The translations under genes were made by a program, and so were the position numbers. Shown piece after piece: positions 60,205 to 64,000 of a stretch of DNA of 64,000 bases. The stretch's first letter is position 1. Every line of letters starts with the position of its first letter. A model generated the notes under the pieces. The model saw nothing but the letters and a program-made list of their open reading frames with translations, was not told where the DNA came from and did no database searches. Origin of the DNA: Flavobacteriales bacterium (GTDB lineage Bacteria > Bacteroidota > Bacteroidia > Flavobacteriales_F > PHOS-HE28); the NCBI GenBank assembly GCA_023957375.1, contig JAMLHB010000003.1, forward strand, positions 587,342-651,341, in the 5' to 3' direction.

Positions 60205-60815
60205 ACAGTTCGCAGGGCCTCCCGCAATGACGCATCGTATAAGAGCGTCGTCACTGCGAGGAGGCCCCGCGGCGTGGCAGTCCAGACACGAGAGTGACCA
60301 GATGGATTGCTTCGGCCGAAGCGGCCTCGCAATGACGGGTTGGATAGGAGCGTCGTCACTGCGAGGAGGCTTTGCGACGAAGCAGTCCATGGCGAGAGTG
60401 CCCAGAAGGATTGCTTCCCGGCACAAGGCCGGGACCCGCGACGGCCTCGCAATGACGGGTTGGATAGGAGCGTCGTCACTGCGAGCCGGCTTTGCGGCGC
60501 GGCAGTCCAGGCAAGGGGTGACCAGATGGATTGCTTCGGCCGAGGCGGCCTCGCAATGACAGGTTGGATAGGAGCGTCGTCACTGCGAGCCGGCTTTGCG
60601 GCGCGGCAGTCCAGGCAAGGGGTGACCAGATGGATTGCTTCGGCCGAGGCGGCCTCGCAATGACGGGTTGGATAGGAGCGTCGTCACTGCGAGGAGGCTT
60701 TGCGACGAAGCAGTCCATCCACAAGGGCGCCCAGATGGATTGCTTCGGCCGCGACGGCCTCGCAATGACGGGTTGGATAGGAGCGTCGTCACTGCGGGCT
60801 TGACCCGCAGTCCCG
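60205..60815. repeat. six tandem palindromic units of about 105 bp
   Basis: GAGCGTCGTCACTGCG begins units at 60243, 60348, 60468, 60572, 60676 and 60781, i.e. spacings of 105, 120, 104, 104 and 105 bases. Each unit contains TCACTGCGAGxxGGC, GCAGTCCA, GATTGCTTCGGCCG and ends GGCCTCGCAATGACGGGTTGGATAG. Its ends are imperfect complements, so each can form a hairpin. The 120-bp unit has a short insertion (CCCGGCACAAGGCCGGGACC), and the last unit is truncated and ends GCGGGCTTGACCCGC. The first half-unit at 60205 is degenerate. Confidence 0.9.
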
Positions 60816-61003
60816 GTCGCCTTCCTACATGCCGATCCATGGACCAAGGATCCCATCATTCAATGACCTTGCGGGAGACCGTGATGGAGCTATGAACTGA
60901 CCCGACCAACGTGCGGTGCTTTTATGCACCGCGAAGCATTCACGCAAATCCCATTACATTTTTTATGTATACCTTGGCAACGAACCTTTAATACCAAACC
61001 CCC
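60816..61003. other. non-coding leader of the last gene
   Basis: No gene is seen. A hairpin, GCGGTGC-TTTTAT-GCACCGC, lies at 60913-60932. TACCTTGG at 60970-60977 is one base from the TAnnTTTG consensus and lies 26 bases before the ATG at 61004, with an AT-rich stretch (ATTACATTTTTTATGTAT) upstream. Confidence 0.4.
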
Positions 61004-64000
61004 ATGAAAACCAAAATGACGTTTAATCTACGCGCGGGCGAAGCTACCCCCCCCCCTCCCCCCCCCGCAGGGGCCTGCTGGGCGCGATAACCGTAGCCGC
61101 CATGTGTAGTGGTGGCCTGCTGGCCGCACAGGACAACCTGTGGGTGAGCGGGTCCCAACTGCTGGACTTCAACGTGCCGGACAATGGGGCCACCACGGTG
61201 TGCCCCCTGCCCACCGGGCCCACCAGCACGGACTATCAAGGGCAACCGGCGCAGTACGCCCAAAATGCCCAGTACGATGAGAACGGCAAGCTGCTCTTCT
61301 TCGTGGTGGACGGTGCCGTTTACGACCACGCCGGGTATTTGATGGCCGACAACGACGCAGCCACCTCTTGCACGGACTGCCTGATGAAAGGCATCCAGGA
61401 AGTGAGCATCGTGCTGGTACCCGGCACCTGTGACAAGTACTATATCATTTCGGCGGACACCCGGTCGGTCGGCGGCTCCAACAGTTCCCTGCTGGCCTTC
61501 AGCATCCTGGACCTTTCCATGGGCAGCCGCTACCACACTGGCCGGAAAGGTGCCGTTCTGCACCAATACGAGCTGCCCCCGGAATTTGCCCTTCTCGAGG
61601 CAAGGGCGGGGAATGTCTCGGGGCTTCCCGGAGTGAACGGCTATGCCTCCTACATCATAAAGGACGGGCAAGCGGGCATCCTGCCGGGCAACAACAGCTC
61701 CCGCTACAACAACATCCAGCATACCGTTCTTGACGGGGCCATGGCCAACGGGAACAAGGTGCTGTTCATCCGCACCGCTGCCGAGAACTGCTATGCCCTG
61801 ATCACCCCCTACGGCATCGGCGAAGCCCTCCTCCTGGGCTCGGTGCACAACAGCGGCGCCGATGCAAAGCTCTTTATGATCGGCGGCAACGCCGTGGCGC
61901 AAGGACCCGATGGCAAATACCGCTATGCCGTTAGCCGAAGCCTCAGCTTTGTGGTCGGCCCGGCGGACAACCAGATCCTCGAGCTGCACGAGGCCCATAT
62001 CGGCACCAGCAGCGTAAGCATCAGCCCCATCGACCTGGGCATCAACACGAACATTTACGGGTCTTCCAACAGCACCGGCCGCATCCGGGGCCTTGCCTTC
62101 AGCCCCAATGGCAGGTATCTGTACTTCACGCAAGCCTTTGCACCACACGTGGGTTACATCGATGTGCTGGACCCCGCCTTGCAGGTATACGACCTGGGCA
62201 TGCAGCTTGGAATACCCGCAGCCAACCTGGCTCCCTTTGCCCAAGGGCAGATACGGCCCAACAAAACCCCCGACGGCTTGGACGATGCCATCTACTTGCC
62301 TTCCGCCAACGGCTTTGGGTATATCATGAACCCGGATGCACCTGCCTCGGCGAGTTGGCACCCCGGCATGTCCACCACAGCCACGCTCAATGGCCTCCCA
62401 ATATCCATGGCCGCGCAATCATCCTCCCCATCCTTTACGCAATACCTGATGGACATGCAGAACTACCGTGACCAGCAGATCCCCAGCTTGGCATTGGCCC
62501 GGTGCTGCCGGGACAATGAACGCATACCCGAATGGAGCCACCGATATGAGGATGTTTGGACGAGCACGGCCGCAAACCCATGGACCCCCGCGGACAATCC
62601 GTTCACCAGCATTTCATGCCCGCCGTCCCCGACCCTTTACTCCCAACACCAGATCGATTCCATCTACACGGTACACGGCTACCTATACTTCGAAGAGAAC
62701 TTCGTGATCAAGACGGGTAGCCGGTTGTACGTGAAGAACATGGATTGGCGCTTTGCCCCGAACGCCCGCCTGATCATTGAAAAGGGGGCCTTCGTACGCT
62801 TTGATAGCTGCTTGGTGAGAGGAACCATTGATTCATTGGGGTGCATACCCCGCAAATGGCCCGGCATGGAACTCTACGGAACCCCCACCGCCATACAGGG
62901 GCAAAGTGCCTACCCGGCCGACCAAGGCCGCTTGGTGCTCAACAACACCACCGTGCAGGATGCCGTGGTGGGCGTTACCGTGGGCAAAAAGAACCAGTAC
63001 GGCCTAGTGGTGGGCACCGGGGGCATACTGGAAACCAACGGCAGTACCTTCCGCAACTGCCGCATAGGCGTGAACTTCTATGCCTACCAGAACAGGCTGC
63101 CCAACAACAACCCCATACGCAACCGCAGCCGGTTCATCCGCACCACTTTCACCGCGGACGCCAACTACATCGCCCCGCTGGACTTTGCCCTGCATGCCCA
63201 ACTGTGGAAGGTGGACGGCATCGATTTCTTGGGTTGCACCTTTGAAAACCTGCGCATCACCGAAACCAGCAGCAGCCAGTTGGGCCAAGGCATCCGCAGC
63301 TTGGATGCCCACTTCCGCGTGCTGCCCAGTTGCATGGACCCCCTGCCAACGCCTCCGGGTGGCACCTGCCAAAACCTCATGCCTTCCCGCTGTACCGGGT
63401 TGGACATGGGCATACGCGCCGCCAATGCCGTAACCGCCCGCAACTTCACCGTGGACTATGCCGAATTTTCCAACAACGTCTGCGGCGTGTACGCCAACAG
63501 CGTGCTCAACTTCGAGGTGCATAACAGCAACTTCCAAGTGGGGAGCAGCAAGGCAACAAGTTACACGGGACAAGATGATGAGCAGTACTGGCAAGGTGCT
63601 CACCGCGGCATTTACAGTTTCAAAAGCTGGGGCTTCTTGGTGGACGACAACACACTCACCAACAACCCCAATGCGACCACCACCCAACTGGAGGGCATTG
63701 TAACGGGTTACAGTGAGGCCCACAACGATGTGGTGTTCCGCAACCACGCCAGCAACTTGCAAACCGGCTTTGCCGGCGAAGGCATCTGCGCGGACCCCAG
63801 CAACCGCGCACTGATCGGTCTCACCTATCTGTGCAACACCAACAGCGGCAACGTGAACGACATCTGGGACCGACGGGTGACAAGCGACCCAAGCACTTTC
63901 GCCAACCAGACCATCCGCACCACCCAAGGTTCCTACAGCCGTCCGGCCGACAACAGTTTTGGGCAGCAAGCAGGTGGACACTTGGACCTCAAGAACACCA
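61004..64000 (+). CDS. large secreted protein with a frameshift at a poly-C tract; runs off the window
   Basis: From the ATG at 61004 the frame reads MKTKMTFNLRAGEAT, then Pro codons, and stops at 61088 (28 residues). The frame one base back, entered by adding one C (or removing two) in the C10-T-C9 tract, gives RRGLLGAITVAAMCSGGLLAAQ, a good signal peptide, and then stays open for about 977 codons to the end of the window. The secreted part starts DNLWVSGSQLLDFNVPDNG, has propeller-like segments (IRGLAFSPNGRYLYFTQ), and after about residue 550 reads like a right-handed beta-helix (ARLIIEKGAFVRFDSCLVRG, RLVLNNTTVQDAVVGVTVG). It is probably a T9SS cargo, but the C-terminus is not visible. The break is either phase variation or a sequencing error. 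Confidence 0.8.
61047..61066 (+). repeat. C10-T-C9 homopolymer tract in the signal-peptide region
   Basis: Ten C, one T, nine C. Slippage of +1 or -2 would join the ATG at 61004 to the long downstream frame. No other run of similar length was noticed in the window. Confidence 0.9.

Follow-up and report, generated by a model that had tools for sequence, protein, structure and literature searches.

In the 64,000-nucleotide stretch of Flavobacteriales DNA analyzed here (referred to as the window), a gene for a large, putatively secreted surface protein carries a C-rich tract, C10-T-C9, within the region encoding its signal peptide. This gene is probably a phase-variable (contingency) locus that operates by slipped-strand variation of the tract and that was assembled in its OFF state. 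Four observations carry this reading, namely the tract itself, the arrangement of the reading frames around it, the recurrence of such tracts in the genus, and the differences in tract length between close relatives.

A C-rich tract sets the reading frame of a putative surface protein

The switch tract lies on the plus strand at positions 61047-61066 and is made up of C10 (61047-61056), a single T (61057), and C9 (61058-61066). It is found 43 nt after ATG 61004, the start codon of a short pre-tract leader (61004-61046, plus strand; MKTKMTFNLRAGEA + T). An alternative in-frame ATG is present at 61016, and the related gene L085 of genome G034 starts at MTF, the equivalent of the MTF of the window gene. 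ATG 61004 is backed as the intended start by a promoter -7-like element, TACCTTG (60970-60976, plus strand), that a sequence scan located 27 nt before it; the -7 consensus of the Bacteroidota is TAnnTTTG. Translation from ATG 61004 yields MKTKMTFNLRAGEATPPPPPPAGACWAR and then reaches a premature TAA (61088-61090, plus strand), giving a product of 28 residues. The frame of the surface protein is displaced by 2 relative to ATG 61004, i.e., it is one base out of step. It opens at 61027, directly after a TAA, and remains open on the plus strand to the end of the window (64000) and beyond it to a stop at position 652672 of the contig (C3), for 1409 residues counted from ATG 61102. No start codon was found in this frame upstream of ATG 61102, and ATG 61102 itself is located too far downstream for the core of the signal peptide to be part of the product. 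The hydrophobic part of the signal peptide (RRGLLGAITVAAMCSGGLLAAQ, 61067-61131, plus strand) was assigned from the sequence and from comparison with relatives, without a signal-peptide predictor. The length of the tract sets the frame of the full product, a 28-codon product as assembled versus a 1409-codon frame, and at its present length the gene is OFF. Upon re-reading of the sequence, the tract, the start codon, the stop after 28 residues, and the shifted open frame were all as the initial annotation had described them.

The genome from which the window derives has a GC content of 62.5%, and a first-order Markov model predicts 7.4 C or G runs of at least 8 in the 64-kb window and 0.002 runs of at least 15. 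Only two runs of at least 8 were found, and these are the two halves of the tract; with none outside it, such runs are avoided elsewhere in the window. It should be noted that, with the central T, neither slippery unit is longer than C10 or C9, which is a point against phase variation.

The 1409 residues from ATG 61102 matched no family above its cut-off in profile searches and gave no match in NCBIfam. The C-terminus aligned with positions 1-74 of the 75 positions of Por_Secre_tail (PF18962), the T9SS type A sorting domain, with a score of 15.0 bits, which is below the 27-bit cut-off. An AlphaFold2 model covering residues 1-965 (mean pLDDT 65, pTM 0.54), searched with VIA-align, contains a predicted beta-propeller at residues 8-453 (61123-62460, plus strand) and a predicted right-handed parallel beta-helix at residues 482-925 (62545-63876, plus strand). 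The propeller aligned at Z of about 19-20 with PLL-type sugar-binding lectins and 6-phosphogluconolactonase-like propellers, and the helix at Z 26.8 with alginate epimerases, 21-26 with phage tailspikes, and 22 with the adhesin PfbA. Propeller-like and helix-like parts had been proposed from the letters alone, and structure prediction bears this out with moderate confidence. By inference from its predicted fold, the product is most sensibly read as a surface protein that is secreted and may bind carbohydrates; the earlier suggestion of a variable surface antigen is too specific, since binding of sugars, adhesion, or service as a phage receptor is equally likely for an environmental bacterium.

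The stop of the surface-protein gene overlaps by ATGA the start of the next gene (L048; 512 aa, MNLRNLAAVAILATAATAAQQPF..., C3:652669-654207). The start of this 512-aa gene is duplicated at the end of contig C3, where the assembly turns into G/C junk. On the other side, imperfect intergenic repeats (GCGTCGTCACTGCGAG...GGATTGCTTCGGCCG...CTCGCAATGACGGG) cluster at window positions 60240-60800, between the surface-protein gene and a minus-strand neighbor that probably encodes 2-oxoglutarate dehydrogenase E1.

Signal-peptide tracts recur within the gene family

The comparison set comprised 45 genomes (MAGs) of one uncultured Flavobacteriales genus. Family- and order-level searches returned members of this genus only, and all counts reported here are within-genus. 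A search by protein similarity yielded 32 N-termini of homologues, of which 18 carried a C or G tract of at least 8 in the signal-peptide region; the tract either follows the start and precedes the hydrophobic core or lies inside the signal peptide. The tracts range from C8 to C15 and from G9 to G21, with one interrupted C5AC6; a T19-G21 tract in G041, which is counted among the 18, is suspicious in that it is located at a contig end. Relatives lacking the homopolymer would have refuted the initial annotation, and every one of the closest relatives that has an N-terminus (60-70% identical) carries a tract, C15 in G033 (60% identical) and C12 in G034. Three paralogues in G017 have C11, C12, and C9, and other tracts are G10 in G016 and G9 and G12 in G006. 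The 14 N-termini without a tract belong to more distant homologues with ordinary signal peptides, and they count against the reading. Two additional paralogues, beyond the 32 N-termini, were recovered by means of leader DNA. One leader, MKTTDLLKPLLVAAFVA-PPP-LNPLVGAGLLMAQ, is 83-95% identical among paralogues at the DNA level, whereas the mature parts are only 33-60% identical. In one relative, L079 (G031), the ATG is lost as well. At L282/L287 (G017:C130:8425), the contig is broken at C19-Ns-C23, between an ATG and the signal peptide of a secreted protein, a possible sign that long switch tracts fragment MAG assemblies.

Tracts in unrelated families and in the genome background

A family with SprB repeats (PF13573, E 2.8e-16), which is unrelated to that of the window gene, is represented by 54 N-termini from the genus, of which 30 carry a tract. 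These tracts (C8-C16 or G8-G19) extend between the ATG and the signal-peptide core and follow several unrelated leaders, e.g., MRFY-C12, MHYI-C15, RSADRM-G9, and MQQFNTLR-G13; in 4 further members of the family the tract is 5' of the start codon. A signal-peptide tract is present in a third family, DUF7948, too. The differing distances from the ATG, the use of either C or G, and the unrelated leaders suggest, on comparison of the sequences, repeated origin or strong retention rather than one inherited accident.

Tracts at signal-peptide positions (18/32 and 30/54 N-termini) are enriched over the background, which amounts to approximately 21 C or G runs of at least 9 across the entire 3.9-Mb complete genome G002. 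Furthermore, five of six runs of at least 8 in the 80 kb around homologues were signal-peptide tracts. The generic pattern ATGAN{25,55}C9 showed modest enrichment over a reversed control, because the control matches GC-rich junk too. The G/C tracts at contig ends of the window's genome, G000 (C1 end, both ends of C2, C3 end; up to G20/C25), were rejected as probable assembly junk, as were runs adjoining the N gaps of G001.

Further long tracts in the window's genome are located at the starts of genes for secreted proteins or in their promoters. A G10 signal-peptide tract leaves a gene of the SprB family OFF (L046:9359; G000:C3:243765), and a gene of approximately 1380 codons with a C9 signal-peptide tract is ON (L047:4001; G000:C3:404499). 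Poly-C is found upstream of the start in the SprB-repeat paralogues L035 (G000:C1:602770; C10), L039 (G000:C2:322862; C13), and L348 (G025:C22, ~9150; C11), flanked by conserved GTTAAT...TTA and AACAGACCTTCAC elements, and this arrangement looks like transcriptional (promoter-spacing) phase variation. At L040 (G000:C2:381576), a C10 run separates TTTG from ACCTTCG, which together form a -33/-7-like pair, and is located 18 nt upstream of the ATG in a gene for a secreted protein; it is a possible promoter-spacer switch.

Tract lengths differ between close relatives

Two genomes, G001 and G002, are 99.6% identical over approximately 30 kb around their shared tracts, and both signal-peptide tracts that could be compared differ in length, being ON in one genome and OFF in the other. 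The difference in the first gene, C9 (ON) versus C11 (OFF), is the sole gap in 2.3 kb, and the difference in the second, G+C10 (ON) versus GCCT+C11 (OFF, interrupted), is the sole gap in 1.6 kb. By comparison, 11 of 12 control C9/G9 tracts shared by these genomes were unchanged and one differed by a base (Fisher p 0.03 for signal-peptide versus control tracts). It should be noted that the control tracts are slightly shorter on average than the signal-peptide tracts, that G001 is incomplete, with only 2 of 10 unpaired G002 tracts located in it, and that in G001 and G002 alike the first gene has an extra frameshift approximately 105 codons further downstream. Leaders of the SprB family with 92% identity apart from the tract have G9 (ON), G10 (OFF), G9 (ON), and G8 (OFF). 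These frame-flipping differences between near-identical genomes and near-identical paralogues support the phase variation first proposed from the window alone. Length polymorphism confined to the tract is present at sister loci among close relatives; it is inferred for the window's own locus, for which the genomes compared included no close strain.

Frame states and alternative explanations

A start could be assigned in 45 genes of two families, and of these 8 were ON, 17 OFF(+1), and 20 OFF(+2). Where either of two ATGs could serve, the start was chosen manually; five further genes, either ambiguous or without a start, are not part of the 45. The ON state falls short of one third (8/45, P 0.016), and only 1 of 18 genes is ON in the window's family. 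A single fixed programmed frameshift does not fit these data, because all three frames occur and both OFF classes are common. Simple random switching does not predict the excess of OFF genes, and the excess is unexplained; selection may have favored the OFF state in the populations sampled, or slippage during expression may contribute.

Taken as the whole explanation, slippage during expression would mean that slipping of RNA polymerase or of the ribosome on the tract delivers a fixed in-frame fraction at any DNA length, so that the tract would set a low expression level and would not be a heritable switch. That 37 of the 45 genes are OFF in the DNA, yet have downstream frames that are open and conserved for more than 1000 codons, is what such slippage would leave behind. 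However, OFF(+1) and OFF(+2) occur at similar frequencies, alongside some ON genes, and thus no direction of slip has been selected; moreover, the length of the tract in the DNA differs between near-identical genomes. Transcriptional slippage is not known to occur typically on poly-C or poly-G. This explanation is considered unlikely, but it is the strongest of the alternatives.

It is very improbable that the true tract is in frame and that a miscalled homopolymer in the consensus or assembly produced the OFF state. Homopolymers are the commonest error of long reads, and the four-contig assembly of the window's genome has long G/C junk at its contig ends; however, a long tract occurs at the same place in many independent assemblies, several with contig names that suggest short-read assemblers (NODE_, k127_), and the agreement of G001 and G002 at 11 of the 12 control tracts also argues against miscalling. 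Such an error cannot yield a 20-base C-rich tract at the same site in unrelated gene families, and even if the exact length were miscalled, the tract and the recurrent pattern would stand. Least probable of all is a decaying gene, in which a neutral homopolymer carries the frameshift of a pseudogene, for although the gene is OFF as assembled, L079 has no ATG, and L115/L207 have a second frameshift, the downstream frame, in this genome as in most relatives, is strongly conserved and stays open for approximately 1400 codons, the disruption is limited to the tract, and tracts recur in unrelated families.

A proposed model of slipped-strand phase variation

In the favored explanation, slipped-strand phase variation, replication slippage in C10-T-C9, within the region encoding the signal peptide, would gain or drop Cs. 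One length class in three would link ATG 61004 to an exported protein of approximately 1400 residues (ON), and the remaining two would terminate after a few dozen residues (OFF). Codons composed only of C would be read as proline and, in the poly-G relatives, codons composed only of G as glycine, whichever the frame, and the signal peptide can for this reason tolerate a variable tract length. The tract would amount to a run of one helix-breaking residue beside the hydrophobic core, and it is inferred that its length is free to vary without obviously destroying export. The mismatch-repair gene mutS is present; the strain is thus no obvious hypermutator, and switching would depend on the length of the tract and not on a mutator state. 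Because the same design recurs in unrelated secreted-protein families, single cells probably carry differing ON/OFF combinations of surface proteins, and the benefit, by inference, may be escape from phages or predators, or varied attachment. With neither reads nor a second isolate at hand, it is an inference that slippage is the cause, that it is reversible and switches genes within a population, and that cells in the OFF state lack the protein; the function and benefit of the system are inferred as well.

Relation to known systems

The closest parallels are pilC (poly-G) and opa (CTCTT) of Neisseria, in which a repeat within the signal-peptide coding region sets the frame of the mature protein by its length and paralogues are switched separately; the present case differs in belonging to another phylum and in involving both C and G tracts and unrelated T9SS/SprB-type proteins. 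Leader switching in Neisseria is experimentally proven, whereas the case presented here is only inferred. The poly-G contingency loci of Campylobacter jejuni are similar in having long G/C homopolymers near starts, a genome-wide repertoire, and random ON/OFF states; however, that genome is AT-rich, so that poly-G is conspicuous, in contrast to a 62.5% GC genome in which such runs are otherwise avoided, and many of its targets are surface-glycan genes and not secreted proteins. Phage escape by phase variation in C. jejuni is listed in a 2025 review (PMC11868660). The same review lists the poly-C of Streptococcus mga, and Bordetella homopolymers appear in PMC1891110; in both the homopolymer is the slipping unit, but the genes are regulator or virulence genes, without a signal-peptide tract spread over families.

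Within the same phylum, Bacteroides switches surface components by DNA inversion, but this is driven by invertases acting on promoters or genes and does not involve homopolymers. As far as the accessible portion of PMC11868660 extends, phase variation in the Bacteroidota is DNA inversion only. Slippage in a run of 4 Cs was raised in a B. fragilis paper as speculation only (PMC3090145), and Bacteroidetes and Flavobacteria are absent from the main text of a 2010 study that surveyed 99 chromosomes for homopolymeric tracts. A search of the open-licence literature, which is incomplete, found no case of homopolymer phase variation for the Bacteroidota. The type of mechanism is known from Proteobacteria, and being the first in the phylum is a lead, not proof.

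Beyond the single locus, the evidence tilts towards a genus that carries a genome-wide phasome, which would be the first of its kind in the Bacteroidota, in which C/G homopolymer switches in signal peptides and promoter spacers would exert OFF-biased, combinatorial control over large T9SS/SprB-type surface proteins. In such MAGs, many genes annotated as lacking a start or as carrying a frameshift may in fact be intact and switchable. Homopolymer phase variation has mostly been described in host-adapted pathogens and commensals, and several MAG names in this genus suggest wastewater. If the reading is true, bet-hedging with surface proteins would matter in an abundant uncultured Flavobacteriales genus too, perhaps against phages or predators.
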